Assembly (NCBI GenBank): GCA_003141315.1
Contig: PLLP01000024.1
Location: 204,395 to 268,394 of the forward strand
DNA from: Phycisphaerales bacterium
Lineage (GTDB): Bacteria > Planctomycetota > Phycisphaerae > Sedimentisphaerales > Anaerobacaceae
Direction of reading: 5' to 3'
DNA: 64,000 bases
In this document: positions 9,127 to 43,724 of the stretch, in pieces
How the letters are laid out: each line of letters starts with the position of its first letter
Numbering within the stretch: position 1 is the first letter of the stretch
The notes under the pieces: generated by a model
What the model was told of the DNA's origin: nothing
The model's database searches: none
Seen by the model: the letters and a program-made list of their open reading frames with translations, nothing else
Program-made: the position numbers and the translations under genes

Positions 9127-9768
9127 TCACAATTGTTTTCGCCTTCTCATCCAGCCGACAAGGGCTACGCCGATACCGCCGAGCAGAACCGCCCCCGGGG
9201 CAGGGATAACAGGGGTGTTAGGCGAAATACTGAGATTATACAAAAAGGCGGATGTATCGAAATTTTCATCATTGTACAAATTGAACACTAATTTAACATT
9301 ACATCCAACCAGACCTAATACGTTAAGGCTACCCGTTCCTCCGTTTACTTCGTCGCTTGAAATTCTAAAGAAGTGCCCCAGCCCATCTACAGAAGGGCCA
9401 CGGTAGTTACCTCCATCGTCTATCAGTGCCGCAGTAAATATGCCGGACTCAGCACCAGATTCACTGAACACGACTTCAAAAGAAAGAATTTTTGAACCGG
9501 GTTCAATAGTAAAAAAATCTTGGCTTATTAGTTCGCTATTCGGAATTGGGTTTGTTTTTTCCTTATCATCCGGGAAAAACACCGCCGCCATGACAGGAGA
9601 GTCATCAGGATAATAAGGACCTGTAGATACTAATTCATTATGCGTCCAGCCGTCTAATCCATCGTCACCCTGTGAAAAATCGGGATTTTTTATATTGGCT
9701 GTTGCCGGATATGTCGGCAGGAATAAGAGTATTCCGGCAAAAATGGACAACAAAAAAAAGTTTTTCAT
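9127..9768 (-). CDS. Exosortase-sorted secreted protein (PEP-CTERM-like, PAPGA tail)
   Basis: A 213-residue protein with an N-terminal signal peptide (core FFLLSIFAGILLFL, end TANI), a short beta-rich ectodomain starting with NPDFSQGDDGLDGW, and a C-terminal tripartite sorting signal: IPAPGAVLLG, a hydrophobic helix, then WMRRRKQL. In Planctomycetes this PAPGA form replaces the PEP motif recognised by exosortases. GGAAGG before ATG 9768 supports the start. It is one of three neighbouring tail-bearing proteins. The likely processor is the exosortase fusion at 21684. The ectodomain function is unknown. Confidence 0.85.
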   Translation of the reverse strand: MKNFFLLSIFAGILLFLPTYPATANIKNPDFSQGDDGLDGWTHNELVSTGPYYPDDSPVMAAVFFPDDKEKTNPIPNSELISQDFFTIEPGSKILSFEVVFSESGAESGIFTAALIDDGGNYRGPSVDGLGHFFRISSDEVNGGTGSLNVLGLVGCNVKLVFNLYNDENFDTSAFLYNLSISPNTPVIPAPGAVLLGGIGVALVGWMRRRKQL

Positions 9769-9821
9769 CGTTTTCCTTCCTTGTGAATTACTTGTCAGAG
9801 CGTCTAACAGAATGATTTTAA

Positions 9822-9915
9822 GCCGCGGATTTTGCCTGTTTTTCTATAAATATTCTTTTAATCTGTGTAATCAGTCCGCCATAAGAACGGCGGATAAATT
9901 CCATCCGCGGGTTCA
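9822..9915. repeat. Palindromic spacer repeat upstream of the PAPGA-tailed gene
   Basis: The 9769-10109 gap has no gene. It contains TCCGCC (9875-9880) facing GGCGGA (9889-9894), within wider CCGCGGAT (about 9824) and ATCCGCGG (about 9903) arms. The inner pair resembles the TCCGCC/GGCGGA palindromes seen elsewhere in the window but with a longer loop. Confidence 0.5.
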
Positions 9916-10064
9916 TTTTGTTAGAATCCCTTAGTCTTTATCCGTAATGCGAACGGTTTTGTATAAAGCCATTTTGGTTTTAAGCCGGCTTATACAATCC
10001 CGCATTTCGAAAATTTAAAAACACAAATACATAGGGAATCCACTACAAGGCCTTCAAAGCTCTG

Positions 10065-10092
10065 CGATAGCGGGGTTTGTGCCCCGCTATCG
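10065..10092. terminator. 11-bp GC-rich hairpin after the second PAPGA-tailed gene
   Basis: CGATAGCGGGG (10065-10075) and CCCCGCTATCG (10082-10092) pair perfectly around a 6-nt loop. It lies 18 bp beyond the stop of the gene at 10110. There is no clear T tail on either strand, so it may be a transcript-end stabiliser rather than a classical terminator. Confidence 0.5.
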
Positions 10093-10109
10093 TTCGCTTT
10101 GTACAATTT

Positions 10110-10745
10110 TTACAGAGTTCTTCTTCGTCTCAGCCAGCCAACAAGAGATACCCCGATACCGCCCAAAATAATGGCGCCTGGCGCCGGAACACTTGGCGAC
10201 GGAGGCAGAGTGGAGTACTTAAACTCAATACTGCTACTGGTGTAATAACAATCCGGGTCCAGACCTATGCCGAGGATGCTGGGAGAAGTATTTACAAGGT
10301 AGCTCGTCAAGTCAATGCTAAAACTCTCTGGTGAATTCCCATTGTTGTCTTCGTATGTTTTGAGCCAAATGCCATACACGACAGGCCCCGCAGGGTCGAA
10401 GTTGTCACCGCCGCCCTCGTTGTCGTACCCGATGTAGCCGTAAGACGTTGACGACATACCGAGGCCGGAAACAGCGTTGCTAATGTCGGAGGCGCTCAAG
10501 AGGTGAATATACAGTTTGTCACCATTCTCTACCCGCCAGTCATTTATGTTATTGACATAGAGAGCCGCAGAGGTAATGACCTTTCCATTGGGAATTATCG
10601 TCCAGATGTAATAGTATTGATGTACAAGGTCCGACGACAATGTCGAGGGAGCGGAAATCGTATAGTCATACGTGCCATTAGCCATTGCACAGGCCGAAAA
10701 CACAGTCAGAAACAAAAATATGCGAAAGAAACTTAATTTCTTCAT
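10110..10745 (-). CDS. Exosortase-sorted secreted protein (PAPGA tail)
   Basis: ATG 10745 begins a normal signal peptide (MKKLSFFRIFLFLTVFSACA) after AAGG; the longer frame from 10799 adds 18 residues with no signal character and was not chosen. The mature part is Ser/Tyr/Gly-rich and beta-like, with no recognised domain. The tail is PPSPSVPAPGAIILG, a hydrophobic helix, then WLRRRRTL. It lies 79 bp after the next PAPGA-tailed gene, in the same direction, and the two are probably cotranscribed. Presumably secreted, cleaved by exosortase and released or attached at the surface. Confidence 0.85.
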   Translation of the reverse strand: MKKLSFFRIFLFLTVFSACAMANGTYDYTISAPSTLSSDLVHQYYYIWTIIPNGKVITSAALYVNNINDWRVENGDKLYIHLLSASDISNAVSGLGMSSTSYGYIGYDNEGGGDNFDPAGPVVYGIWLKTYEDNNGNSPESFSIDLTSYLVNTSPSILGIGLDPDCYYTSSSIEFKYSTLPPSPSVPAPGAIILGGIGVSLVGWLRRRRTL

Positions 10746-10824
10746 AAACGAACCGACCTTTCTTGAGCATTTTGAGGGGGAGGCATTTTTGCGTTCCACC
10801 CTTAATTGCTTCTGTTAAGCTCGC

Positions 10825-11445
10825 TTACAGTGTCCTTCTTCCGCGAAGCCAACCAACCAATGCTACACCAATACCGCCCAGCAGTATTGCACCCGGAACA
10901 GGAACCATCGTCGCAGAAGCATGGAAGTCATCTGGCCCACCGGCATTATTTTTAATCAATAAACCAGCCATATCGTTGGTACCTGGAGTTAGTCCTGCAA
11001 GACTCAGGGTTAGGTAGGATGATCCACCAAGAGGGGCAATTACTGTCCAACCAGATTGTGCCAATGTGCTGCCATCATAAGCATAGAGCGCGAAGGACCA
11101 GTTCTGCTGGTTGTCGTTATAGACTGTCAAACCAATATCAGTAGGAGCACCTGTCAACAAATCGACCGTGGTTCCTAAACCTAATTGTCCTGTAGTACCC
11201 ATATTTCCAAGGTTTAATGTCCAACCAACCTGTCCTGATAAAGGATTTGCCTCTCCATCAGGCCAAGTCGGCAAGGGACCGTTGTACGTCGCTAAAGTGC
11301 CGCCATAACTTGCGGTCGTAGCACCCGGCGTTGTAGTATCTATGGCGAAATTTTGCAGATTAGTTAAAGTAAACTGATAAGTCGGCACAGCGAAAACCGG
11401 TGTCGCCATTAGTGCTAAAATACATATTAAAATCAACTTCTTCAT
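10825..11445 (-). CDS. Exosortase-sorted secreted protein (PAPGA tail)
   Basis: A 206-residue protein with a clear signal peptide (MKKLILICILALMATPVFA), a Thr/Gly/Leu-rich ectodomain resembling PEP-CTERM beta-sandwich proteins, and the tail PVPGAILLG, a hydrophobic helix, then WLRGRRTL. GGAGG lies 8 nt before ATG 11445. The tail nearly matches its two downstream neighbours while the ectodomains are unrelated, as expected for separate substrates of one sorting enzyme. No catalytic motif is seen. Confidence 0.87.
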   Translation of the reverse strand: MKKLILICILALMATPVFAVPTYQFTLTNLQNFAIDTTTPGATTASYGGTLATYNGPLPTWPDGEANPLSGQVGWTLNLGNMGTTGQLGLGTTVDLLTGAPTDIGLTVYNDNQQNWSFALYAYDGSTLAQSGWTVIAPLGGSSYLTLSLAGLTPGTNDMAGLLIKNNAGGPDDFHASATMVPVPGAILLGGIGVALVGWLRGRRTL

Positions 11446-12880: not shown

Positions 12881-13267
12881 TTACAATGGTAGTTGCCGGT
12901 TTCCAATATTTTCCTGTCGGGCTGCTTCGGCAGGGGGGGTATAGGCGGTGCCGGTTTGATGCTGAAGTTGCTGGACCTTTTCTATATATTTAAGCAGCAT
13001 TGATATCCTGTTTCGTGTTCGCGTTTTACCAAAGATATTTCGCAGGTGTGTTTTCACGGTTCCCGGCTGAACCCTTAATTTATCAGCTATAACTCCATTT
13101 GTAAAACCGCTGCAAACCAGCTTTGCCACCTGCAATTCGCGGGGACTCATCTCGTAATACCTTTGCAGGTAGCTCCATTCTTTCTCGTCAAGTATGGTTA
13201 CGCATGGTTCTTCACGAAAGGTTTCTTCTTTTTTGCCATTAGCATCGTATTGTTTATCCGCTGACAT
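12881..13267 (-). CDS. LuxR-family DNA-binding regulator
   Basis: A 128-residue protein with a GerE/LuxR helix-turn-helix at about residues 38-100 (MSPRELQVAKLVCSGFTNGV, then GTVKTHLRNIFGKT). No receiver or ligand-binding domain precedes it, so it is a minimal regulator or works with a partner. The start lies 2 bp after the stop of the large TPR gene, indicating translational coupling at the end of the exopolysaccharide operon. It may regulate this operon or the PAPGA-tailed genes downstream, by inference from position. Confidence 0.85.
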   Translation of the reverse strand: MSADKQYDANGKKEETFREEPCVTILDEKEWSYLQRYYEMSPRELQVAKLVCSGFTNGVIADKLRVQPGTVKTHLRNIFGKTRTRNRISMLLKYIEKVQQLQHQTGTAYTPPAEAARQENIGNRQLPL

Positions 13268-17468: not shown

Positions 17469-19193
17469 TTACAGATGACTAACGAAAAGTTTAATAATTT
17501 TTCTGGCTGTCCTGAAGCATATCCACAAATCCAGCCTTAAAGACAATCCTCTTATATATTTGACATCGTAATGTATCCATTCCTGGAAATCTTTGAGCGG
17601 TTCCCGTGTGCCGAATACCTGCCAAAGCCCTGTAATCCCGGGCCGAACCGACAACCTTGCATAATGCCAGAACGGGCATAATTCATTTTCCGCTTCCGGC
17701 GAAGGACGCGGACCGATAACACTCATCTGACCAAGCAGGACATTTATAAACTGCGGCACTTCGTCGATGTATGTGGTTCTTAGGAATCTGCCAACGCTGT
17801 TGACGCGGGGGTCATCGTCCATTTTGAACTGCGGGCCGTCAACCTTGTTCAGTGCCCTCAGCTTATCCTGCATATCGTCTGCCCCGACAACCATAGTTCT
17901 GAACTTGATGCAGTTGAATTCCCTGCCGTGAAGTCCCTGCCGTTTGTCTTTGAAAAACAACGGACCTTTCGAAGACAGTTTTATGACAACTGCGATAACG
18001 GGGAAAAAAGGTGCGAAGAGCAGCAGGGCGATGCCGGCGGCAATTATGTCTGCGATTCGTTTGAAGAATCTTGCATAAGAAAATCTTGGCCAGATACGAA
18101 ACGTTTCATTGCCGGGCTTGCTGCTGATTATATTGTTATTATGCCGTTTTATCTGCTGTATGTGCTGTGGTAGGCTTTTTCTGCAATCGCAGGTCTTTGC
18201 AGAATCAGGAATACTTAAATGGTTAGATTCATACTTTGTAAGAACCCTGTTTTGTATATACTGCCCGGCCGGGATTGAAACATTCGAACCGATTATGGAT
18301 GAAGTTATTACGGTCTCGCCTTCAATCCTTACGCCGTCACCGATAATAGTTGGCCCTACAATAATTGCACGGGGGTCAATTTGGACGTTTTTACCCAGCA
18401 AGACTTTCCCAAAAAGCAGCGGATTATCCGGGCCGGCAGCATAATTAAACGGACGAGTCTCCGACACAATCTTTTTGCCTGCCCCGTTATGATGAACTGA
18501 TGCTGATGAACCGGGAGTGACGCTGCAGAAATCGAGCAGTCCGTTTTCTGTATCCAGGTACAGCACTTCCCCGCCCATTTTAATCGAGGCTGTTTTTAAC
18601 GAAGCCGACTTGCAGCCGGCCAGGAAATCAGGAAAATGTCCCGTCAGAATAATATTGTTTGAAATTTGCTCAAGGGCGGCGGTTCTGATGAAAATGCAGT
18701 GCGGCCAGTCCTCAGGTGTTGGCTCAGGCTCAAAAGAATCATAGTATAATCTGCGGAAACCGATGAGGCCCTGTGACGTTATTCGTGCTTTCTCATTATA
18801 TGCCTGCAAATCACTGCTTACATTAACTGTTATAAAATTAGCCTGAAGAGCAGAGAACATTTTTTCAAGTAATTGCGGCGCTATTTTGGTTGCAAATCTC
18901 CCGTTGAAGATGCAAAGCCACTTTTCCCGTCTGGCTTTTGGAAGGGTTTGCAGACAGACCGGCTCGTTATCCATATATGGAATTATCCGGTCTTCTTCAG
19001 CGAAGTTTTCACAGTTACAGTCCCCGGGGTATGCAACTATAGAGTTTCGGTGATTGCCGCCGGGCCAGGGCCAGGTTGTCAGCCCTTTAAGAATAGCGCC
19101 GGCAGCAGGGGAGCTGGAAAGCGCCTGGCGGAGCAAACTGTTATCCTTACTGTGCGTAGTCTGATTATCTTTGTGTATAATTATTAATCGCAT
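17469..19193 (-). CDS. Undecaprenyl-phosphate sugar transferase with N-terminal left-handed beta-helix module
   Basis: Residues 374-574 form a bacterial sugar transferase (WcaJ/PglC-like): amphipathic entry helix (FFKRIADIIAAGIALLLFAP), KFRTM, DPRVNSVGRFLR, DEVPQFINVLLGQMSVIGPR and RPGITGLWQV. It would transfer a hexose- or HexNAc-1-phosphate to the lipid carrier and start repeat-unit synthesis. Residues 1-250 are a diverged, nucleotidyltransferase-like region with no intact signature, and about 255-320 are hexapeptide repeats (VLLGKNVQIDPRAIIVGP). Standard WcaJ proteins instead carry membrane helices N-terminally, so this arrangement is unusual and mirrors the exosortase fusion nearby. Confidence 0.87.
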   Translation of the reverse strand: MRLIIIHKDNQTTHSKDNSLLRQALSSSPAAGAILKGLTTWPWPGGNHRNSIVAYPGDCNCENFAEEDRIIPYMDNEPVCLQTLPKARREKWLCIFNGRFATKIAPQLLEKMFSALQANFITVNVSSDLQAYNEKARITSQGLIGFRRLYYDSFEPEPTPEDWPHCIFIRTAALEQISNNIILTGHFPDFLAGCKSASLKTASIKMGGEVLYLDTENGLLDFCSVTPGSSASVHHNGAGKKIVSETRPFNYAAGPDNPLLFGKVLLGKNVQIDPRAIIVGPTIIGDGVRIEGETVITSSIIGSNVSIPAGQYIQNRVLTKYESNHLSIPDSAKTCDCRKSLPQHIQQIKRHNNNIISSKPGNETFRIWPRFSYARFFKRIADIIAAGIALLLFAPFFPVIAVVIKLSSKGPLFFKDKRQGLHGREFNCIKFRTMVVGADDMQDKLRALNKVDGPQFKMDDDPRVNSVGRFLRTTYIDEVPQFINVLLGQMSVIGPRPSPEAENELCPFWHYARLSVRPGITGLWQVFGTREPLKDFQEWIHYDVKYIRGLSLRLDLWICFRTARKIIKLFVSHL

Positions 19194-21683: not shown

Positions 21684-23663
21684 TCACTTTCTTTCCACCA
21701 CCACTAAATCTTTCTTTTCAGGAGTTACCATCAACATTGACAGAAGCTTTAATTCCGCCACAATTGCTCCTAATGCCAGCGGCATCATTGCATATCCTCC
21801 GAAATCATGGAACATTTTCTCCCATCGTTCTCCGCTTAATATCGTAAATGCAACAGCTGTAATTGCCAGACGTATTGTGTTGCAGAGCAAAGCTATAGGC
21901 AGACATGAAATCAGGACAACCAGCTTCTCCCACCATTTGCGGTTGACCAACAGAACCACCCAAGCGCCGATTACAACAAAAGCGGTTATCATTCTCAGGC
22001 CGTTACAGGCCTCGGCAACAGCAACGCTTGACTTACCTATGTTGATGATGTTGCCTTCCTGAACAACCTCATAACCAACCAGTTCGAGGCAGAACACTGC
22101 TGAAGAGGTGGCCCATCGTTGAAGCGGCAGGGCAAGGGCAGCCTGAACACGGTTCGGCCACGGAAGCATCAGACATAAAAACAGCAATACCGTTGAAACC
22201 TTTTTGAAAAATTTCCACCCGCACATAAGCAATACCAAAGCGGCGATACTCAGAATAATTGACAATCTTTCCATTGAGCCATACATAAAGTAAAGTCCGA
22301 AGTACCTGACTGCCTGTGCAAAAAGAAAAGCAGGTACTCCCCACATAGACGGTCTTATGGGAGTCTGCGCAATTTCCTGTCGCCTCGACCATAAAATATA
22401 CAGGGCCAGAAATGGAACGAGCAGTCCTGATGAATATTCATCGCTCCTTATCCATACGCTCCAGAGGTCTTCAATGCCTGACCGGTAAGACCAGAAAAAG
22501 GCAAATAAAAGAATGATGACGGCAATTATGGATAAAACATCGGCTGTGTGTTTCTGTGCTGAATTTGGCAATAGCCTTACTAACCGTTCCTGCTGATTTT
22601 GCAGGATAGTTTTAATCTTAATCGCACTTTTTCTGGCGAGGTCATATCCTGTCGGGAACAAAGTTCGCAGTAATCCTGCCGGACGGGAAGGAACAGCCTC
22701 TTCTTCAACGGTGGTATTATTTCGCAAAAACGCCTGGTTGTCGAGTACACAACTTCGAACCATGCAGTTCTCTTCAATTTTAACATTGTCCCAAATAATG
22801 CTGTTCACTACCGCGTTATTAGCGCCAATATGACAATTGCGTCCGATGATAGCTGGGCCGGTGATAACGGCTCCCTCGGATATTGATGCCCCATCCAGAA
22901 TGGCTATATGGCCGAACATCCGTGCGGAAGGGGCTATATTTATATTGGCGCCTCTCCAGATTACCTGGTTATGATTATTTTGGGTAAGTTTTAAGCTTCC
23001 GCCTAAATCTGTTGTCTGCTGCATGTAATTACTGACGGCAGATAAGTAGCCCTGCCAATCCTGAAAATTCCCGGCGTCATTATTAAGAACAGCCGCATTT
23101 ACCGTTTTGCCGGCGCCGACCAATGCCGGAATAAGTCCTTGTTTAATATCGAAGTAGCCATCAGCGGGTATATAATCGAGAACATCACGGTCGCAAACAT
23201 AGATATCTGCAGGTCTGCCGAATCGCAGCTTTTCATTTTGGCCGGGATTGAAAAATGCCGTCAAATGAGACTTGCCATCATTGTGAACCCGCAGCAGCAA
23301 ATCGATTTCCGGCGGTGAAACCACAGCGGCAGAAAATATGATAAACAGCTGCCCGTCATCATTTTCGGCAGCCTTGCGAATGCATCCTGCCGTACCCATA
23401 GGAAGCGGCTCATCAAGAAATTTTAGATTCAAATTGTTTTTATGGTTGGAATTATTTATCTCAACAGGCAGCGAAGCATCACTGTTGGAACAGATGACCG
23501 CTTTTGTTATTCCCTGTTGCGACAAATGTTCGAGCAGATGCTGTAAGACGGATTCTTCCCCGACCGGCCACAAGGCGGTCGATAAAGATGACTCTAAAGA
23601 ACGTTTGTCGAATCCGCGACAACCCGCGAGAACAATAGCTATTACTGACTTGTCATTAATCAT
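21684..23663 (-). CDS. Exosortase fused to nucleotidyltransferase-like and left-handed beta-helix domains
   Basis: One uninterrupted 659-residue frame. Residues 1-215 resemble a sugar-phosphate nucleotidyltransferase, but the signature is degenerate (VLAGCRGFDKRSL in place of GG-x-GTRL...K), suggesting lost catalysis. Residues 225-320 are hexapeptide repeats (ARMFGHIAILDGASISEGA). From about 372 to 645 is a multi-pass exosortase with the transpeptidase triad: Cys553 in EACNGLRM, Arg598 in CNTIRLA and His619 in FHDFGGYAM. Exosortases cleave PEP-CTERM-type tails, and the probable substrates are the PAPGA proteins at 9-11 kb. EpsI is not fused here but encoded at the far end of the operon. The fusion may tie sorting to sugar-nucleotide state (inference). 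Confidence 0.9.
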   Translation of the reverse strand: MINDKSVIAIVLAGCRGFDKRSLESSLSTALWPVGEESVLQHLLEHLSQQGITKAVICSNSDASLPVEINNSNHKNNLNLKFLDEPLPMGTAGCIRKAAENDDGQLFIIFSAAVVSPPEIDLLLRVHNDGKSHLTAFFNPGQNEKLRFGRPADIYVCDRDVLDYIPADGYFDIKQGLIPALVGAGKTVNAAVLNNDAGNFQDWQGYLSAVSNYMQQTTDLGGSLKLTQNNHNQVIWRGANINIAPSARMFGHIAILDGASISEGAVITGPAIIGRNCHIGANNAVVNSIIWDNVKIEENCMVRSCVLDNQAFLRNNTTVEEEAVPSRPAGLLRTLFPTGYDLARKSAIKIKTILQNQQERLVRLLPNSAQKHTADVLSIIAVIILLFAFFWSYRSGIEDLWSVWIRSDEYSSGLLVPFLALYILWSRRQEIAQTPIRPSMWGVPAFLFAQAVRYFGLYFMYGSMERLSIILSIAALVLLMCGWKFFKKVSTVLLFLCLMLPWPNRVQAALALPLQRWATSSAVFCLELVGYEVVQEGNIINIGKSSVAVAEACNGLRMITAFVVIGAWVVLLVNRKWWEKLVVLISCLPIALLCNTIRLAITAVAFTILSGERWEKMFHDFGGYAMMPLALGAIVAELKLLSMLMVTPEKKDLVVVERK

Positions 23664-26939: not shown

Positions 26940-28277
26940 TTATACCTTTCCCATCAGTGAAACGACAGGTCTGATTTTCCCACTGGATGTCCGCTGCACA
27001 GCTTTGACTTGTTTGAATTCAACACTCAGTTCGCTCGGAAGATGTTGGGCAATAAGCCCCTCAAAATCTTTCAAATCCTTCGTCGAAAATTTCTCGCTTG
27101 GTACATACTCAACGGTTATATGATCTAATTTGTCTTGGATTATTTGGCTTTCGGCTATGTGGGCAGTACCATAAAGTACGTGGGTCAATATTGCTGGCCC
27201 AAACTTCCTCCCAGATGGTGTCTTTATTGTATCTGCTTCACGTCCAATTACAGATTTAATCACTTGAAAAGCCCTGCCACAGGTACAATTATTATTTGAC
27301 ATGACAACAACATCTCCTATATCGTACCTAATAAGCGGCATGGCCAAATTCCAGAACCCTGTTGAGATTATTTTGCATTTATCGCCAATAGTATCATCGA
27401 TGGGTACCAACTCGGTCAGACCATATTCAGGTATGATGTGATAACAACCGTGTTCGCAAGTATGGATATAGCATACACGTTCAGCACCGCCATAAAAATC
27501 AAATACTTTGCAACCAAACGCTTTTTCTATTGTCTGCCTCATGGACTCAGTTAATACCTCAGATGAAGTTAACGCGGACTTTAGCTTAACCTCGATACCT
27601 GAATCCAAACAGGTTCGCGCAAGAAAATAAACTGCCGACGGATACCCGACAATAGCTTTAACTTTGTATTGCTTCATTAAGAGAGCATAGTCTTGTGCTG
27701 TTTTTTGTGATAGATGATATGTTGAAAGTATTAGTTCTTTCATAAAAGGGTCATACGCAAATAATTGCCCGTCCTGTTTATCAGGCGGCACTATCAGCCT
27801 GCCCGTAAGAAAAGCACATTTATCTGACAAACCGATTCCAGCCCAATCCCACTGCCGCCTGACAAAGGCGTGCTCGTTACCTATCGAAAAGATGTTCCTG
27901 TGGAGCATTAATGGTGTGCCTGTTGTCCCCCCTGTGAAAGCCTTGGCGAGCAGCCAGCGAGGATACATGGTCGAGACGATTGAGTCTCCTGCGAGTAAGA
28001 CATCGTTTTTCGTGAGAATAGGAAACTGTTTTATATCTTCCAGTCGTTTTATGCCTTCAGATTTTATATGATGCTGGTCCATCAGCTTTCGGTAATATGG
28101 CACAGTATTATAGCTGTGTGTAATGAGGCGTTTGAGCAGTTTTAGCTGCAGCTTATCCAATTCCTGCTGACTCCACCATTGCGTTTTTGCCAGTTGTCTC
28201 CGCCGGAACCAGAATGGACCGGCGAAGCGCTTGGAAAGTAGTGCGATTACACCTTTTGCTATGACTTTACAATTCAT
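26940..28277 (-). CDS. PaaK/CapK-like adenylate-forming enzyme
   Basis: A 445-residue protein of the phenylacetate-CoA ligase/coenzyme F390 synthetase family, CapK branch. The phosphate-binding motif TGGTTGTPL lies near residues 114-122, with FDFYGGAERVC and RYDIGDVV (ATP-site Asp) downstream and a metal-site-like cysteine stretch (NNNCTCGRAF). These proteins recur in capsule and exopolysaccharide loci, where they probably activate a carboxylic acid for attachment to sugar. The substrate is unknown. It starts 39 bp after the acyltransferase-like gene. Confidence 0.87.
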   Translation of the reverse strand: MNCKVIAKGVIALLSKRFAGPFWFRRRQLAKTQWWSQQELDKLQLKLLKRLITHSYNTVPYYRKLMDQHHIKSEGIKRLEDIKQFPILTKNDVLLAGDSIVSTMYPRWLLAKAFTGGTTGTPLMLHRNIFSIGNEHAFVRRQWDWAGIGLSDKCAFLTGRLIVPPDKQDGQLFAYDPFMKELILSTYHLSQKTAQDYALLMKQYKVKAIVGYPSAVYFLARTCLDSGIEVKLKSALTSSEVLTESMRQTIEKAFGCKVFDFYGGAERVCYIHTCEHGCYHIIPEYGLTELVPIDDTIGDKCKIISTGFWNLAMPLIRYDIGDVVVMSNNNCTCGRAFQVIKSVIGREADTIKTPSGRKFGPAILTHVLYGTAHIAESQIIQDKLDHITVEYVPSEKFSTKDLKDFEGLIAQHLPSELSVEFKQVKAVQRTSSGKIRPVVSLMGKV

Positions 28278-28316
28278 AATTTGCTGCCTGCCGATTGAAC
28301 CTGCCGCTGTCCCCGG

Positions 28317-29582
28317 CTATAAACAAAATTGGGTGCGAATCCATATTTTCCACAAAGGCCGAGGTTTCAGCTTCAGCCAGAGAGTAACCCTGCGAAACCA
28401 TATTTTGTGATACACAATATTAAGAAGCCCTGCCAAAATGCGGAAGATAAAGACTCGAATCATCACGGGTAATCTCCTGGGAATAATATAAAGACCTCTA
28501 ATCGGGAAAAGTTTCCCGCCGAGCCGGAGTTTATATTCGTCCTTGCCTTGCATCATATCAATGTAATTGACGTTTTCTTTGGTCGCGTTCTTGACCTGCT
28601 CTTCGTAAAGAATGGTCCCAATGTTTATGCTATGGTCGAGATAAGGTAACTGCTCGATATCAGCACGTGCGTTAAGAATCGCATAATATAGATTTCCGAA
28701 TTTGTAGTCGTACTCATAGCCCAGAGGGCAATCTCCCAGTCTTATCTGCAACAACCTCAGTCTGTTCTTTTGCAACTGAACTTTAGCTGTTTCGAAATGA
28801 AAATTGTGAGCGTCCGGCCAATCCGCAAAATGACCTAATTTGCCCAATTTCTGCCAATGGGATTGATGCATTTGAACAAAACCGACAAAAATCTCCTCAA
28901 AGTTGTCCAACGTTGCAAGATTCGAAATAAACGGCAGTTTCTTATCACATGCAACTTGTAATAAGTCTTTATAACTTCGTTTAATAGTGCGTCTTTGGTT
29001 CTTGCTGAGACTATCAATCTGTTTTTCCAAACTTTCCGATAACTTGACGTACGTTTGATTACCATTAAGTTTGCTCAGTACATAGTTGGAACTCCCGAAA
29101 GACCGAATTAAAGCATCTTTTAGATTATCGTAATGACCATAAAGGCCGGCGATGGGACCTATGTGCAAAATATCCCATTTTTCCCCGGCAAGTGATTCAA
29201 AGAATCTTTGCAAAACTGGTTTTATATAGTCGCTAAGCACAGGTATAGTTATTTGGTCTCCTGTAAAATCTGAAGACACGATTTTAGCTGCTCTTACGAA
29301 CACAGGACCCAGCCAAATTCTCTCAAAGAACAAAGGTATTATGCCGACTAATTTATCTTTATCGTCGAAGAACAGGGAAACCTGTAGCCTGCGCCCTCCG
29401 CCGTAGTATTTCCACCAGATTCGGCACCAATCATATGTCAAAAAAATATCACCACCTGCTAATTCAACAAAATCATCCCATTTCTGTTGAATAGGCTCCA
29501 ACTGCTCGAAATTATCACAGAGGCGGACTTTTACAGCTTTTTCAGGATTTACGTCCATTTTATTGGTATGCAGGTTAATCAC
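28317..29582 (-). CDS. CelD/BcsL-type GNAT acyltransferase
   Basis: A 421-residue protein of the Acetyltransf_6 (PF13480) type. An N-terminal half with DIFLTYDWCRIWWKYYGGGR leads to an acceptor-recognition region and a central LSKNQRRTIKRSYKDLL motif, followed by a GNAT-like half (LGYEYDYKFGNLYYAILNA). Relatives include BcsL/CelD and FemAB-like aminoacyltransferases in cellulose and PEP-CTERM exopolysaccharide loci. It may acylate the polysaccharide or a sugar nucleotide. It is one of three such genes in the operon. Confidence 0.8.
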   Translation of the reverse strand: MINLHTNKMDVNPEKAVKVRLCDNFEQLEPIQQKWDDFVELAGGDIFLTYDWCRIWWKYYGGGRRLQVSLFFDDKDKLVGIIPLFFERIWLGPVFVRAAKIVSSDFTGDQITIPVLSDYIKPVLQRFFESLAGEKWDILHIGPIAGLYGHYDNLKDALIRSFGSSNYVLSKLNGNQTYVKLSESLEKQIDSLSKNQRRTIKRSYKDLLQVACDKKLPFISNLATLDNFEEIFVGFVQMHQSHWQKLGKLGHFADWPDAHNFHFETAKVQLQKNRLRLLQIRLGDCPLGYEYDYKFGNLYYAILNARADIEQLPYLDHSINIGTILYEEQVKNATKENVNYIDMMQGKDEYKLRLGGKLFPIRGLYIIPRRLPVMIRVFIFRILAGLLNIVYHKIWFRRVTLWLKLKPRPLWKIWIRTQFCL

Positions 29583-29592
29583 TTTTCAAGGG

Positions 29593-30624
29593 CTACTTTT
29601 TGAAGAGATTGTATATTTTCTCGGAGATATGCCAAACTGCTTTGGCACGTGAGTTCGCACAGGCTTCGAAAGCCCCGATATAGACAGCCTCATCCGCTCC
29701 CATTCTTGACTCGAATTTATAAACACTAGGGTTATTTTTGGGGTCAATTCCTCCGAGGTCATATCTTTTCATACCAGCACGTTTAGCGGCTATCAACGCC
29801 TTCCACCAAACCAGATAGGACGACCCTAACTGCAAACCTTCTTCACTGCTTGCCTGGAAAATCCCGACTGCAGTATCGCCCATGTAGCTGGTGACATCGG
29901 CTGTTAGAGGCCGGCCGTTATAATAAGCCAGCACTACATTCATCTTTTGTCCCAGCGGCAACAACCGCTGAGTTCTGATAAATAGCTGCATGTCAAGGCC
30001 TTTGAATCTTTTTCGTTTTTGAGCACTCATATATAGTCCGTCCAAGACCCTAAAATATTCCTCGTCTGACCCTTCTTTAATCTCAATATTATTGCGTTCA
30101 GCTCTTTTGAGAAAGCTGTGCCATTTACGATGAAATTTGCTTCGCATTTGATCCTCACTTATATTCAACGGGAACATCATAGTATGATAGGGCTTGACTG
30201 AGTGAGTTGGTTGAAATCCGCTTGATACCAGCATCTCTAATAATTCCTGGCCAGTTTCATCGGCACAAACATTTGGTGCAATTCTCAGCACATTTACTTT
30301 AGGTCCAACGTATAAGCTGCGAAGGGCTTGCAGCACCTCGATGGAACATTTCAATGTTCCATCGGCAGCGCGAACCAATGGCCCCCATTGTATATAACCT
30401 ATTTTGAGACCCAGAGGTTTGATATCTTTCATCCGCACATGTCCCATAGTCACTGGCAGTCCTTTCTCATCCTTGATAATGACCCTGCTTAATTTTTGAC
30501 CATCCAATTCCGCTCGTGTCTGCTGATATGGCCAGGTCTGGTATATGCTATAGTCGGCGAAACTGCCGGCATATCGTTCCCAGTCTTGATTAGTTATGTT
30601 ATCAATCAGTGACATATAAGCCAT
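29593..30624 (-). CDS. FemAB-like aminoacyl/acyl transferase
   Basis: A 343-residue protein with a tandem-GNAT FemAB layout: an N-terminal GNAT half with FADYSIYQTWPYQQTRAELD, a basic RSKFHRKWHSFLKRAERN motif at about residues 160-180, and a C-terminal AVGIFQASSEEGLQLGSSYL ... YDLGGIDP region typical of FemX/lipid II-type enzymes. FemAB proteins are hallmarks of PEP-CTERM exopolysaccharide loci, where their acceptor is unproven. It lies 10 bp upstream of the CelD-like gene and is cotranscribed. Confidence 0.87.
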   Translation of the reverse strand: MAYMSLIDNITNQDWERYAGSFADYSIYQTWPYQQTRAELDGQKLSRVIIKDEKGLPVTMGHVRMKDIKPLGLKIGYIQWGPLVRAADGTLKCSIEVLQALRSLYVGPKVNVLRIAPNVCADETGQELLEMLVSSGFQPTHSVKPYHTMMFPLNISEDQMRSKFHRKWHSFLKRAERNNIEIKEGSDEEYFRVLDGLYMSAQKRKRFKGLDMQLFIRTQRLLPLGQKMNVVLAYYNGRPLTADVTSYMGDTAVGIFQASSEEGLQLGSSYLVWWKALIAAKRAGMKRYDLGGIDPKNNPSVYKFESRMGADEAVYIGAFEACANSRAKAVWHISEKIYNLFKK

Positions 30625-30642
30625 TCAGGTCGCTCCTTGTTC

Positions 30643-31428
30643 TTAGTATCTCAACAGTTTCCTTTTGATGGTCATTACAGAGCCTACTATTTGATATGCT
30701 CCGCCGACTTTAAGCTTGAACTTAAATAGGCTGTCTTTAAGAGAGACGGCGACACGACCGATTTGCATAGTGTCTGCCGAGGTATTTACTATGAAAGGCT
30801 CAATAGTGAAACCGAGCCGATAGCCAGCTCGTCTAGCGGCGTTACAAACTCTTGAGTTGTAAGCTCCATGTGGATAGCTGATGCCGCAAACTTCGTAACC
30901 GAGGATTTTTTCTAATGCCAATTTCGAGTTAGATAATTCAGCTTTTAGGGTATTATCGTTTAATTCAGTCAAAATGGGGTGCGAGATTGTATGCGAGAGA
31001 ATCTCAAAACCATACTTATTAGCCTCTATTAGCTGTTTTTCGTTCATCACAATATCATTTTTATCCGGAGAATTTTCGGGAATATTCCATCTGGGTGGCT
31101 GGCCTAGATTGCCGGTCGGTATGAAGATTGAGGCTGGCAGACTATGTTTTTTTAGCACCGGCAGGGCGTTTTCAAAAACGCTTACAAAAGCGTCATCGAA
31201 TGTTATCGCGGCAATCGGATTGACCCCATCCATAGAAGCTGTAAGTATTTCGGATGCCTTGACAACTTTGCAATTACTTGCCAGGTAGGCCATTTGTTTT
31301 TCGAAACTGCCGATGTCCTGTTTTTTTACCGAATGGTAGTACATTACGATTCGACAGGGCTTTTTCCGGGCCACAGACGAAGTGGCAGCGTAAGTTATTG
31401 CCAGGACTGTCTTTACTATTTCCTTCAT
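30643..31428 (-). CDS. Polysaccharide deacetylase (NodB-like), variant motifs
   Basis: A 261-residue CE4-family protein. ITFDDAF supplies the catalytic and metal Asp pair near residue 77, SHTISH supplies the metal His pair near 145, and SYPHGAY stands where RxPxG normally lies. This resembles the IcaB/PgaB-like branch of short deacetylases. An uncleaved N-terminal hydrophobic stretch (TVLAITYAATSSVA) may target it to the membrane. It may remove N-acetyl groups from the growing exopolysaccharide. A second deacetylase at 32414 has canonical motifs, so the two may act on different residues. Confidence 0.88.
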   Translation of the reverse strand: MKEIVKTVLAITYAATSSVARKKPCRIVMYYHSVKKQDIGSFEKQMAYLASNCKVVKASEILTASMDGVNPIAAITFDDAFVSVFENALPVLKKHSLPASIFIPTGNLGQPPRWNIPENSPDKNDIVMNEKQLIEANKYGFEILSHTISHPILTELNDNTLKAELSNSKLALEKILGYEVCGISYPHGAYNSRVCNAARRAGYRLGFTIEPFIVNTSADTMQIGRVAVSLKDSLFKFKLKVGGAYQIVGSVMTIKRKLLRY

Positions 31429-31462
31429 ATAAGCGAGAGCTTCATTCGTAGTATTCTACTTT

Positions 31463-32413
31463 TTATGGTTCCAGGCCGAAGGCACAATATTTGAACACGA
31501 CCCACTGTTTTTGTTTTTCCTTCAACTCGTAAGTGACATTTTGTCGCGCGATAGTTTTTCTAAACAGTCTCAGCACAATTTCAAGATATCGGCAAGCAGT
31601 GTAGAAAACCAGCAGCAAGCGTGCGAGGAAGTAGTGAATTGTGCTATAGTGTTTCTTGAAGAAAAGCAAGATGCTTTTTTTCATTTGAACTTCCAACTGC
31701 AATTCTTTTGTTTTGCTGCTATGTCCGCCTCCACCGAGGTGAAGTATCACTGCGCCCGGCCAAAACAACATTTTCCAGCCGGCTTTTGAAAATCGATAGC
31801 ACCAGTCAGTTTCTTCGCAATACAGGAAATAATCCTCGTCCATCACCCCAACTTCATCTATAGCCTCATGTCTGACAAGCATAAACATTCCCGAAACGAC
31901 ATCGACCTGGCGTTCACTATCACGTTGCCACCATCGTATATCCTCACGATCAAAAAATCTGTTCTTTTTGAAACATCTCGCCAATCCAGACGAACGCAGA
32001 AAAAGGTTGAGCAAGCTGGGAAATTGAAAACAGGTCATCTGAACCTTATCAGGGTTTTCTCTGACTTGACAACCGATAACCGCTGCTTCCGGATGCTTAT
32101 CAGCATACCGGACGGTCTTTTCAATAGCTGCATCACAAATTAATGTGTCACTATTCAGAACTAACACATATCGGCCATGAGCAATTCTTATCCCATCGTT
32201 AATAGCTGCCGCATAACCACGGTTGGTTGGCTCGACAATGAGAATAACTTCAGGAAATTCAGACCGCACCATTTCACAAGAACCGTCTGATGAAGCATTA
32301 TCAATCACAATAATTTCGTAATTTACACTACCGGCCTGCTCATAAATCGACGCAATACAATTCCGAAGCAGTTCTTTTGTGTTCCAGTTAACTATAATTG
32401 CAGATACGTCCAA
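31463..32413 (-). CDS. GT2 glycosyltransferase, rhamnosyltransferase-like
   Basis: A 316-residue GT-A enzyme: VSAIIVNWNTKELL at the start, IIVIDNASSDGS, VLVLNSDT (DxD variant) near residue 92, and SGMFMLVRHEAIDEVGVMDE then CEETDWCYRF, the ED-type catalytic region. The architecture matches RfbF/WbbL rhamnosyltransferases. The C-terminal ~50 residues are basic and amphipathic, which would hold it to the membrane. It starts one base before the deacetylase stop, so the two are coupled. Confidence 0.9.
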   Translation of the reverse strand: MDVSAIIVNWNTKELLRNCIASIYEQAGSVNYEIIVIDNASSDGSCEMVRSEFPEVILIVEPTNRGYAAAINDGIRIAHGRYVLVLNSDTLICDAAIEKTVRYADKHPEAAVIGCQVRENPDKVQMTCFQFPSLLNLFLRSSGLARCFKKNRFFDREDIRWWQRDSERQVDVVSGMFMLVRHEAIDEVGVMDEDYFLYCEETDWCYRFSKAGWKMLFWPGAVILHLGGGGHSSKTKELQLEVQMKKSILLFFKKHYSTIHYFLARLLLVFYTACRYLEIVLRLFRKTIARQNVTYELKEKQKQWVVFKYCAFGLEP

Positions 32414-33088
32414 CTAATTCCCCCTTTTGTCTCGGCTAAACAATTCTGAGCAGGTCAATACTTGCATGCCGGTCTGCTGAGCCATTGCCAAAGCCAACCT
32501 GACTGACTCAAGGATTAATGGGTCTAACGTGTCATCAGAACGATCAAAATCATGAGCTAACGAGACTGCTCCGCCGGCTTTCTCCGCCAGATGTGCAATT
32601 CTGCAGGTGTCAATTGTTTCTAGCCAGGTGTCACCTAAATCCGAAGACCAGTAGATAATCGGAACCCTGCGAATCCATAGATACAAAAGTAAAACAAGGT
32701 TTAACCTTCCCCTGGGTGGCCGGAATGGATATGTACTATGATTGTTACCTAAAGCAACATTAATTGCCTGCCAGCCTCGTTTTATGTCCTTTAATGCACG
32801 AACAGGCGAAGTTGTCCAATAGTCAAGGTGGTCGTAACCATGCGAACATATTTCGTGACCCCGTGTTGCTATTTGTTGGACAATTTCTTCCCGGCCTGCA
32901 ATATTTCTGCCAAGTAGGAAAAAAGTGGCTTTGGCGTTATATTCAGCAAGCAGTTTGAGAATAGCCGGCGTTAATCTATTGCCTGGGCCGTCGTCAAAAG
33001 TGAGAACAAGTGTCCTCACTTTTGCAGCTTTCCGTCCAAGCAGTATTCGCAAATATCTTCCATAAATTAAGGGGACACCTGCATACAT
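32414..33088 (-). CDS. Polysaccharide deacetylase (canonical CE4), probable N-terminal membrane anchor upstream
   Basis: All CE4 motifs are present: LTFDDGPG (metal Asp), SHGYDH (metal His pair), RPPRGR (Arg/Pro motif), WSSDLGDTW and LAHDFD. It would de-N-acetylate the polysaccharide. From ATG 33088 the product begins at MYAGVPLIYG, but the frame stays open upstream and encodes IIIIITLVGLIFFIFVL, a clear membrane helix. No ATG, GTG or TTG lies in that extension. GGGAGGT at 33149-33155 sits about 9 nt before an ATC codon at 33137-33139, so initiation at a rare ATC/ATT/ATA codon, or a sequence error, is possible. The ATG is used here conservatively. Confidence 0.85.
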   Translation of the reverse strand: MYAGVPLIYGRYLRILLGRKAAKVRTLVLTFDDGPGNRLTPAILKLLAEYNAKATFFLLGRNIAGREEIVQQIATRGHEICSHGYDHLDYWTTSPVRALKDIKRGWQAINVALGNNHSTYPFRPPRGRLNLVLLLYLWIRRVPIIYWSSDLGDTWLETIDTCRIAHLAEKAGGAVSLAHDFDRSDDTLDPLILESVRLALAMAQQTGMQVLTCSELFSRDKRGN

Positions 33089-33126
33089 AAGAACGAAGAT
33101 GAAGAAAATAAGTCCAACTAGTGTGA

Positions 33127-34398
33127 TTATAATGATGATTTTGGTTTACCTCCCGGATTGATTATTTGCTTGGCGGTGCTTTGTTGTAATAAACTGCGCC
33201 AGCATCGTTTTATCCAATTGAGCATGCCTACTCTGTTGACGATATACTTTAAGCCAGAGTCCAGAGCCAGCATTATGGTTTGTAGTGTATTGATAAGTAT
33301 TGGATAAGGCCTCGGCGCAAAAATGTAGACAGAGGCTTCCATCCAATGCTCGTTACAATATTGTTGTTTGTACGGTGCATCGCCAAAGCCAAAATCAAAG
33401 TAATCTGTAGCCCCTTCCTGGCATAGGATTTCCAACACTTTCAGCAAAGTGACGGTGCCAACGTTCAAATCCTTCCATTTCGAATCATAACCGGTTGCTT
33501 CGCCAAAATAGGTCCTGCCATATTTTAAGGCATATTCGAAAGCTGTGGGCTCTTCGTTTATGTAGAGAATATGCACTCGAAACCACCCCTTTGTGGCGGC
33601 CGTATTTAATAAGATATGATTCTGCAGGGTATCCGCAAAGCCAGCCCCTAAAGCATGCTGGTAGGTATTTTTTGAGATGTATGTAACGTCCCTTATGGCT
33701 TGGGGCACATCCTCAAGTTTGCTATAGGTGTGTATTCTAACTTTTCCAGGGTATTTCTTTCCCAGTTTGTTGAGATGGCTCTTTAGATTGCTCCGAGTAT
33801 TTTTAGAGAGTGACGCAAAAAATTCCTCCATATTCTTGGGTATGAGCATTCGCCAGTGAGGTTCAATCACCGGGAATTGGTCGCGGCACGGAAGAGTTGG
33901 CATCTTGCGAACCTGCCGATAAAAAGCCGAGTCCACACGGAGATGATTAAAGAAGATCAAATCTGCTTGGCCCTGTTGTAGTAGACTCATTAATTCCCGA
34001 ACCAATAGCGCACTGGTACCCTCATCTGGTTGACCGAGGACGCCGCCGTATACTACCGTCATACTGCGGAGTTTCGGCTTCATGATTGTTTTATATCCCA
34101 CCCGCAAGGGGATGGCGTGTCTCTCCAGCCGGCCTATGACCATGGCCCGAGGCTGGCTATTATGATAAAAAATCATAATGTAGGGTTTCACTTCGTGGTC
34201 TGCTGAATGTATCACTGAAAGGTACCGGTCTATGTTGGCGTTAAGTTTGGGGAAACTTTCATTTTGCTGCATCTGCTCCCATAACGGTCGAATCGCATTG
34301 ATTTGGTTAAGAGTTCTTGCAATGGATATTTTCCAGCCGTCATCGTATTTTGTGTCTGCTGTTGGCGGGTCGGTTATGATATATCCTTGGTCAGGCAT
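33127..34398 (-). CDS. FemAB/CelD-like acyltransferase
   Basis: A 423-residue protein of the PF13480-type GNAT group: LNQINAIRPLWEQMQQNESF near residue 30, ASLSKNTRSNLKSHLNKLGK (acceptor-basic motif) near 215, and EPTAFEYALKYGRTYFGEAT, then DYFDFGFGDAPYKQQYC near the C-terminus. It is the third such enzyme in the operon. The family transfers acyl or aminoacyl groups in envelope polymers, and the acceptor here is unknown. It lies 24 bp after the polymerase gene. Its 3' end overlaps the putative membrane-anchor coding extension of the next gene. Confidence 0.8.
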   Translation of the reverse strand: MPDQGYIITDPPTADTKYDDGWKISIARTLNQINAIRPLWEQMQQNESFPKLNANIDRYLSVIHSADHEVKPYIMIFYHNSQPRAMVIGRLERHAIPLRVGYKTIMKPKLRSMTVVYGGVLGQPDEGTSALLVRELMSLLQQGQADLIFFNHLRVDSAFYRQVRKMPTLPCRDQFPVIEPHWRMLIPKNMEEFFASLSKNTRSNLKSHLNKLGKKYPGKVRIHTYSKLEDVPQAIRDVTYISKNTYQHALGAGFADTLQNHILLNTAATKGWFRVHILYINEEPTAFEYALKYGRTYFGEATGYDSKWKDLNVGTVTLLKVLEILCQEGATDYFDFGFGDAPYKQQYCNEHWMEASVYIFAPRPYPILINTLQTIMLALDSGLKYIVNRVGMLNWIKRCWRSLLQQSTAKQIINPGGKPKSSL

Positions 34399-42820: not shown

Positions 42821-43165
42821 GCACACCCCGTCCCCGTCGGTTACATTGAAGGATTTCAATGTAACTTCTTTTCTCAACTGTAGTTATATCACAATTGCAA
42901 TGTTATGCCACTCTCTTGCGGCATATCTGAATTCACTTCAAATTCCCGCTCAGAGGCTGGGAGTACCCAGCCTCTTTAACTATACCATTCTTGTCAGGGA
43001 AAAAATCTATTATCTGATCAGCTATGGCCTTTGCTATTTCTCGGATCGAATTCTCAACAACCGAGCTTATCTGCACCTGCACTACATAACGTGCGGGATT
43101 GCCGGAAATGTTTGGACTTCTTCCAAGCAGCCCGGAAAAATCGTCCTCTCGAGTTGTAATCTGTC
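42821..43165. repeat. Imperfect direct repeat, copy B (within and after intact epsI)
   Basis: Counterpart of 41601-41945. Contains a perfect 11-bp inverted repeat, GTTACATTGAA (42840-42850) and TTCAATGTAAC (42855-42865), with a 4-base loop, located 3' of epsI. The 42625-42932 gap holds this and nothing else recognisable. Confidence 0.8.
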
Positions 43166-43724
43166 CATTCAATATATAAAAATTCAAGACAACCGTCTCG
43201 CGATACTGCGGTTCAGGCGTGTGGAAGCGGTGAATTAAACATGATATTTTTCTCCCAGAGGCGGTTTCAAAAGACGATTTATCGGTACTATCCTGAACCC
43301 AGCCGGAAGCTGGATAGCAGACTGCGGGCTGATGGCCAAGTATTCCGCCAGGTCTGGTCGAGCAGTAGACAACATAGACGTCTGCCCACGCATTGGTTTG
43401 TGAATTGATGTATCTTCTGCTGAAGAAATCATCTGCAAAGTTTTGTTCCATATATTCTTTAGTAGTGCTGCGAATGGGCAATTCTATACCTGTCCAGTTT
43501 CCGATTTCTTTGGGAAAATTGCTTAATGGTATTGCGAGCTTAATTGGTGAATGAAGAGCTTTTTGTAGCCGGCTGGTGACTCCGCGATATAATATACCGG
43601 ACGATATTACCAATAATACTGCCAGCAACCATATCCGCGATGTGCCGATAGCCAAACGCCCGCCACAACTGCCGGTAATTGGTTTGCCGCTTCCTTTTAC
43701 TTCCGTCATCCAAACTTTCTCCAT
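42933..43724 (-). CDS. EpsI family exosortase-associated protein
   Basis: A 263-residue DUF3485/EpsI protein: an N-terminal membrane helix at about residues 28-46 (WLLAVLLVISSGILYRG), then LSNFPKEIGNWTGIELPI, the family's opening motif, YVVYCSTRPGGILGHQPAVC with CYPASGW, and IHRFHTPEPQYRETVVLNFY. EpsI is often the C-terminal domain of exosortases or a neighbour. Here it is the first gene of the operon, about 19 kb from the exosortase fusion. The exact biochemical role is unproven; it may assist the exosortase or polymer assembly. A duplicated C-terminal fragment lies downstream. Confidence 0.9.
   Translation of the reverse strand: MEKVWMTEVKGSGKPITGSCGGRLAIGTSRIWLLAVLLVISSGILYRGVTSRLQKALHSPIKLAIPLSNFPKEIGNWTGIELPIRSTTKEYMEQNFADDFFSRRYINSQTNAWADVYVVYCSTRPGGILGHQPAVCYPASGWVQDSTDKSSFETASGRKISCLIHRFHTPEPQYRETVVLNFYILNGQITTREDDFSGLLGRSPNISGNPARYVVQVQISSVVENSIREIAKAIADQIIDFFPDKNGIVKEAGYSQPLSGNLK

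Follow-up and report, generated by a model that had tools for sequence, protein, structure and literature searches.

Related nucleotidyltransferase–beta-helix modules on the phosphoglycosyl transferase and the exosortase of one planctomycetal operon

Gene content of the locus

The window, by which we mean the whole analysed stretch of 64,000 nucleotides from a Phycisphaerales bacterium, contains an operon in which two enzymes, a monotopic phosphoglycosyl transferase (PGT) and an exosortase, each carry an N-terminal module made of a nucleotidyltransferase (NTase)-fold domain followed by a left-handed beta-helix (LbH). We refer to the module of the PGT protein as P-type and to that of the exosortase protein as X-type (Table 1). 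The exosortase fusion, a Wzc-like kinase, the PGT fusion and a PrsT-type TPR protein are encoded in this order and form a conserved block, the prevailing layout across the bacterial order, and no active NTase of the P or X module type was found in the operon of the window.

Table 1. Genes and protein features of the locus (positions in the window)
Feature	Position	Strand	Evidence and remarks
PGT-fusion gene, 574 aa	17469..19193	-	degenerate NTase, short LbH and monotopic PGT
P-type NTase-fold domain, residues 1-228	18510..19193	-	fold model; class-wide profile similarity to the X-type module; no nucleotide-binding signature loop
P-type conserved hairpin, residues 134-150, E ... G-F-R-R-x-Y	18744..18794	-	located where active NTases have the 'EKP' hairpin
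P-type LbH, residues 259-318	18240..18419	-	Hexapep match, profile scores, fold model
Monotopic PGT catalytic domain, residues 372-574	17472..18080	-	hydrophobic helix 376-409, Asp477-Glu478
Wzc-like chain-length protein / tyrosine autokinase, 784 aa	19297..21651	-	sits between both module genes
Exosortase-fusion gene, 659 aa	21684..23663	-	pseudo-NTase, LbH and exosortase; two genes upstream of the PGT gene
X-type pseudo-NTase domain, residues 1-222	22998..23663	-	catalytic Arg, Lys and Asp gone; H127, D172, K174 and the G90-x-A-G93 loop retained
X-type LbH, residues 233-325	22689..22967	-	LbH_EIF2B PF25084, 5.7e-18
Exosortase transmembrane domain, residues 371-645	21729..22553	-	Cys553, Arg598, His619
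PrsT-type TPR protein, 1390 aa	13270..17442	-	TIGR02917, 3.3e-98; fourth gene of the conserved block
LuxR-type HTH protein adjoining PrsT	12881..13267	-	PF00196, 3.3e-12

Two adjacent small proteins (10110-11445, minus strand) end in near-identical PEP-CTERM-like tails (VPxPGAIxLGGIGVxLVGWLRxRRTL) and are probable exosortase substrates. A DUF3485 (EpsI-like) gene (42933-43724, minus strand) lies about 19 kb from the exosortase gene, whereas at some other loci EpsI is found beside EpsH or fused to it. Three GNAT/FemAB-type acyltransferases and two polysaccharide deacetylases are encoded at 26940-34398 (minus strand), along with one AMP-binding-like protein that scores below the Pfam cut-off; the whole set is typical of exosortase-linked EPS clusters.

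The N-terminal module of the phosphoglycosyl transferase

The first-pass annotation of this DNA had placed an NTase-like/hexapeptide region at the N-terminus of the PGT, where WcaJ relatives have membrane helices, and our results bear it out. Pfam detects Bac_transf (PF02397) at residues 378-567 (1.9e-59) and Hexapep at residues 265-297 (5e-7), and it returns no match at E 0.1 for residues 1-255, so that the NTase-like label of this region is unprovable by Pfam. Fold models of the PGT and exosortase proteins were derived from 62 and 67 aligned natural sequences, respectively. The PGT model has a pLDDT of 78.7 overall and above 90 for the majority of blocks within residues 91-220 and 261-320, and its residues 1-334 match NTase-LbH structures, namely GMPPA/GMPPB, VTC1 and eIF2B (Foldseek, VIA). 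Against the best of these structures the module reaches Z 12-14 with an rmsd of 6-8 over ~270 residues (for GMPPA/GMPPB 7d72, Z 14.1 and rmsd 6.8 over 275), a looser match than that of the exosortase module, and this lower Z fits the low-confidence linker 229-252 of the model. At the level of the predicted fold, this settles the NTase-LbH nature of residues 1-334. We found no hydrophobic stretch before residue 376 of the PGT protein and, therefore, N-terminal membrane helices of the WcaJ/WbaP type are absent; likewise, none of the 62 P-type members scanned matches PF13727, the usual cytoplasmic domain.

The C-terminal half has the features of a PGT core. Asp477-Glu478 is invariant in 62/62 rows, the membrane-dipping hydrophobic helix is present, and the catalytic domain matches PglC and WbaP structures (8t53, Z 14.4), with the proviso that the VIA match lists bear little on the catalytic half of either model. 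By contrast with active NTases, the P-type domain has no PF00483 match in any of the 62 members and no signature loop visible by eye. What it does conserve is the hairpin, where E134, R148 and Y150 are kept in 97%, 95% and 85% of 84 rows, and, within the LbH, G280-P281 (95-98% of the same number of rows). The corresponding motif, E...D..G....R.Y, is readable by eye in the P-type modules of distant members of the class, including the PGTs L150:3775-5232 and L151:14354-15820, which keep it even though their LbH is undetectable. Judging from these alignments, the P-type module appears to have lost the nucleotide loop and kept the 'EKP' hairpin, the converse of the X-type module.

The exosortase carries a pseudo-nucleotidyltransferase

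The exosortase two genes upstream had been described as having the same layout, and Pfam indeed finds NTP_transferase (residues 9-149), LbH_EIF2B (234-324) and exosortase (387-639) domains in succession. The exosortase domain (PF09721, 2.1e-55) has C553 and R598 invariant and H619 in at least 90% of 67 rows. Residues 1-337 of the fold model match eIF2B epsilon and GMP pyrophosphorylases with Z ~28-32 and rmsd 2.6-3.4 (VIA), and PF00483 is detected in 52/67 X-type sequences. The top sequence match of the X-type profile among solved structures is tlr0611 (8x7s), a UTP-glucose-1-phosphate uridylyltransferase, with 154 bits covering NTase and LbH end to end; tlr0611 has the GxGTR, PK and GD residues as well as the EKP hairpin, all of which the X-type module lacks.

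We scored the catalytic Arg (GxGTR), Lys (PK) and metal-binding Asp (GD) in 99 X-type modules: 74 fused to an exosortase, two fused to a PGT and 23 stand-alone (25 rows minus the ordinary NTases L081 and L146:5359). Not one retains two or more of the three residues, single ones persisting in a handful of cases (R in 5, K in 4, D in 1). Where active NTases read GGxGTRLxPLT...PK...NGD, the X-type consensus is GxRDFGRCPLASRLPxALWPV without GD. The 'EKP' hairpin is also missing, ~24-27 residues of 8x7s, 7whr and 7x8j remaining unmatched at that place. To judge by its sequence, the X-type module, in its exosortase-fused form as in its stand-alone relatives, is apparently a catalytically inactive pseudoenzyme. 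Its pocket nonetheless reflects more than simple decay, since all 99 modules retain both GTAG-loop glycines, and H127, D172 and K174 are found in 95-100% of 99 rows (from an alignment partly different from that of the residue count). Between the module and the first helix of the exosortase lies a basic linker (9 K/R, 3 D/E). Under the positive-inside rule the module is then cytoplasmic, on the same side of the membrane as the working site of a PGT.

The same genome possesses four other NTP_transferase genes, two of which (L083 and L085) show all three catalytic residues in a profile alignment where the control NTases L084 and L086 are partly misaligned. It also encodes a second, bare exosortase (G000:C10:105077-106054, L080) near a TPR protein (1619 aa) and a kinase-like protein (771 aa), and a small PGT without N-terminal module (G000:C16:146418-147101, L081); within a few kb of this PGT lies an ordinary NTase whose signature is intact, a possible NDP-sugar source for another pathway.

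Two anciently diverged modules

The similarity of the two modules proved to exceed that of random left-handed helices. With the PGT LbH profile, the LbH of the exosortase obtains 59.8 bits, against 14.2-25.6 bits for five unrelated LbHs that the genome also encodes (LpxA, two LpxD, CysE and a WbbJ-type protein), and seven stand-alone X-type relatives score 20.4-62.2 bits, only L143 (20.4) falling in the control range. When the whole genome is searched with the PGT module profile, the exosortase comes second with 59.3 bits and the next protein reaches 23.3. These profile scores indicate that the two LbHs are specifically related. In BLASTP of the two window proteins, the LbHs alone align (28% over 75 aa). 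Profile–profile comparison of the NTase halves succeeded or failed according to the depth of the profiles: with those of the order itself, hhalign gives a probability of 0.6 and a score of 17.1, below the column-shuffle maximum of 22.7, whereas class-wide profiles (84 and 98 rows) give a probability of 91.6 and a score of 47.8 against a shuffle maximum of 27.8 (0/150). The NTase halves are related as far as profiles tell, with significance solely at the class-wide level. Hence, the idea of a common module stands in so far as both enzymes bear a specifically related NTase-LbH; it does not extend to a close copy, as P and X are anciently diverged and each has lost different parts of the NTase fold. 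A recent duplication of the module inside the operon is rejected, because only the LbHs align between the window proteins and the NTase halves fail with own-order profiles.

Both modules evolve rapidly. Over 53 loci, the mean p-distance is 0.69 for the P and 0.59 for the X module, compared with 0.32 and 0.40 for their catalytic partners, a divergence that suits loose tethers and sensors alike. Mirror-tree partial correlations over the same number of loci (P-X 0.27, P-exosortase 0.41, P-kinase 0.12) do not single out the X-P pair.

Gene order and distribution

Using the exosortase fusion as query, we found 80 named loci, all in records labelled Planctomycetota except a few. The fusion occurs in 70 of them, a share that is uninformative because the fusion was itself the search query. 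Among the ten non-fused loci, the exosortase ORF starts at the contig edge in six (L244-L247, L249, L250), module and exosortase are separate neighbouring ORFs in L242 and L243, and L248 and L252 are bare exosortases. An apparent kinase–PGT fusion in L250 was rejected as an out-of-frame ORF extension. Downstream sequence of at least 4.5 kb is available for 54 fused loci, and 53 of these have a P-type PGT. The exception, L193 (11990-13345), has no PGT within 10 kb; its kinase ORF is also short, and the operon is perhaps rearranged or disrupted. The two modules co-occur across 62 genomes of the order (X+P+ 32, X+P- 1, X-P+ 2, X-P- 27; concordant 59/62), a pattern for which Fisher values are a guide only because related genomes are not independent, and the discordant genomes (G577, G601 and G646) are all fragmented assemblies.

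Outside the order, the X-type module is often a protein in its own right. Stand-alone X-type proteins of ~350-470 aa are encoded upstream of kinase and P-type PGT in the groups f106, f109, f114 and f115, and the loci L134-L141, L149 and L152 show this arrangement with no exosortase within 18-19 kb. L142 and L147 combine a stand-alone X-type with a P-type PGT, and neither an exosortase nor a kinase match was found within 18-19 kb; in L148, no P-type PGT was seen in the stretch examined around the stand-alone X-type. In f5, f8 and f9 (L077, L143-L146), the stand-alone X-type gene lies directly 5' of a bare exosortase gene. Genome-wide, an exosortase is encoded somewhere in 19 of the 20 genomes searched, including bare exosortases elsewhere in genomes with a stand-alone X-type. 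Direct fusion of an X-type module to a PGT is seen in L070, L076 and L078. In a quick tree built from 64 rows, fusion to the exosortase calls for three changes, and L153 (G537; 9432-10532), nested in the exosortase-fused clade, keeps the X module directly upstream of the kinase with the exosortase domain gone, an apparent secondary loss. Given the stand-alone, PGT-fused and L153 layouts, the X module follows PGT and polysaccharide genes at least as closely as it follows the exosortase. A 1384-aa ORF (L186:2-4156) continues past the NTase-LbH-exosortase fusion, without a change of frame, into the Wzc-like kinase and is possibly a genuine three-part fusion; G598:C211 likewise has a 1384-aa open frame.

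A possible regulatory pair

We tentatively favour, at somewhat less than even confidence, a model in which P and X are a non-catalytic regulatory or scaffolding NTase-LbH pair for EPS initiation, with X later fused to the exosortase. The P-type module would stand in for the four-helix bundle and PF13727 domain of WbaP, sensing a nucleotide or sugar phosphate and controlling how the PGT oligomerises. The X-type module would originally have been a separate pseudo-NTase-LbH protein of the same operon and the regulatory partner of the P-type, a pairing that may be likened to GMPPA with GMPPB or to eIF2B gamma with epsilon. In this order, its fusion to the exosortase would have placed PEP-CTERM sorting on the EPS-initiating complex at the cytoplasmic membrane face. 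Ligand binding, the X-P contact and an effect on PGT or exosortase activity are all inferred. Contact between the LbHs would be inessential in L150 and L151, where the LbH of the PGT has been lost while the exosortase fusion remains. In Methylobacillus, disruption of EpsH left EPS production intact (PMC1569441, in part), so that feedback on EPS from the fused exosortase is not required. A more daring variant, which we consider a long shot, is a split pseudo-NTase in which the GTAG loop of X and the 'EKP' hairpin of P (with its Arg) would form one composite ligand site licensing EPS initiation and surface-protein sorting together.

The two modules might also have been recruited independently, each LbH homotrimerising or dimerising its own enzyme with the dead NTase as a spacer and without communication between PGT and exosortase. 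LbHs commonly trimerise, those found here are short (~60 residues in P, ~90 in X), and the rapid divergence of the modules together with the loss of the P-type LbH in L150/L151 would agree with such a role. Yet the P and X LbHs resemble one another more than they do the other LbHs of the genome, the NTase parts retain near-invariant pocket residues and not fold residues alone, and the X-type stays beside the P-type PGT even in the absence of an exosortase, which together make independent recruitment rather unlikely. The catalytic residues decide against another possibility, that the modules are active atypical nucleotidyltransferases making the NDP-sugar of the PGT on site. Such channelling would suit the NDP-sugar pyrophosphorylase fold, the consecutive order of the pyrophosphorylase and PGT steps and the PGT-fused X-type modules mentioned above, but with no X-type module of the 99 keeping even two catalytic residues, the P-type devoid of nucleotide loop and PF00483 match, and other NTP_transferase genes available in the genome, two of them with all three residues, we reject it as very improbable.

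The first-pass annotation had also proposed a common regulatory or scaffolding partner bound by both enzymes. Nothing that was found points to a third partner other than the Wzc-type kinase, which might recruit or phosphorylate both proteins. In its favour are the position of its gene between the two module genes wherever a locus of the order spans both of them, the L186 contig, on which exosortase fusion and kinase share one open frame, and the precedent of CapM, a PGT activated through phosphorylation by a regulatory kinase (cited in PMC10942596). However, gene neighbourhood alone fits any complex, the partial correlation between P-module and kinase distances is low, and no kinase match lies between the X-type and PGT genes in L142 and L147. 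Kinase genes of the Wzc kind also accompany module-less PGTs in many EPS loci, and we hold a shared kinase partner to be unlikely. The comparative data fit a simpler idea, namely that P and X are each other's partners or sensors of one metabolite with no third partner needed, since elsewhere in the class a free X-type protein adjoins the same PGT in loci with no exosortase.

Comparison with known systems

NTase-LbH proteins paired with a catalytically dead paralogue are known from GMPPA/GMPPB, plant VTC1-KJC2 and eIF2B gamma/epsilon, and GMPPA/GMPPB, VTC1 and eIF2B are among the top structural matches of both our models. GMPPA is non-catalytic, binds GDP-mannose and inhibits GMPPB, according to the excerpted text of PMC11228364. 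The X-type module resembles it as an NTase-LbH paralogue without catalytic residues, and both models share with active NDP-sugar pyrophosphorylases an NTase fold followed by an LbH, although not the catalytic signature. Unlike GMPPA/GMPPB, the modules described here are bacterial, fused to a PGT and an exosortase, and both degenerate.

The large monotopic PGTs WbaP, WcaJ and EpsZ likewise join a C-terminal catalytic domain to an N-terminal regulatory region; however, the present protein has the NTase fold and LbH instead of the four-helix bundle and PF13727 of WbaP/WcaJ. As excerpts of the respective papers describe, the N-terminal domain of unknown function of WbaP senses UMP and supports the dimer (PMC10942596), and a partner protein has been proposed to promote the active dimer of Myxococcus EpsZ (PMC12802240). 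Bifunctional monotopic PGTs, such as Neisseria PglB with its aminotransferase domain (PMC10942596, PMC6133551, both in part), also carry an extra domain on the PGT core, but here this domain is without the active-NTase signature loop and apparently non-catalytic, so that it does not count as a second catalytic domain, and a second enzyme of the operon carries a related domain. With the EpsH/exosortase and PEP-CTERM system, the locus shares PF09721 with its Cys, Arg and His, an EPS locus, a PrsT-type TPR protein and nearby PEP-CTERM-like proteins. The exosortase fusions described in the part of PMC1569441 consulted involve EpsI or CAAX-protease-like domains, an NTase-LbH fusion not being among them.

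Novelty and significance

Each component of this locus is of a known kind, and the combination, as read from these sequences, was not met in the literature searched, which comprised open-licence PMC papers and so does not imply absence from print. Fusions of a PGT with an active nucleotidyltransferase may already be on record. Within open-licence PMC, the pairing of exosortase and nucleotidyltransferase returned only a cyanobacterial genome paper, and no paper was found for phosphoglycosyl transferase together with nucleotidyl transferase, or for a pseudoenzyme nucleotidyltransferase in a polysaccharide context.

Exosortase genes nearly always lie in EPS loci, a placement whose reason has been an open question ever since the first account of the PEP-CTERM system (PMC1569441, in part). 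The exosortase studied here is joined to a domain with free-standing relatives next to the EPS-initiating PGT, making a physical or metabolic link directly testable, and the shared modules suggest that EPS-chain initiation and surface-protein sorting are controlled together. If true, the P and X modules would give bacteria an equivalent of GMPPA and other dead NTase regulators, and monotopic PGTs a second type of regulatory N-terminal region.
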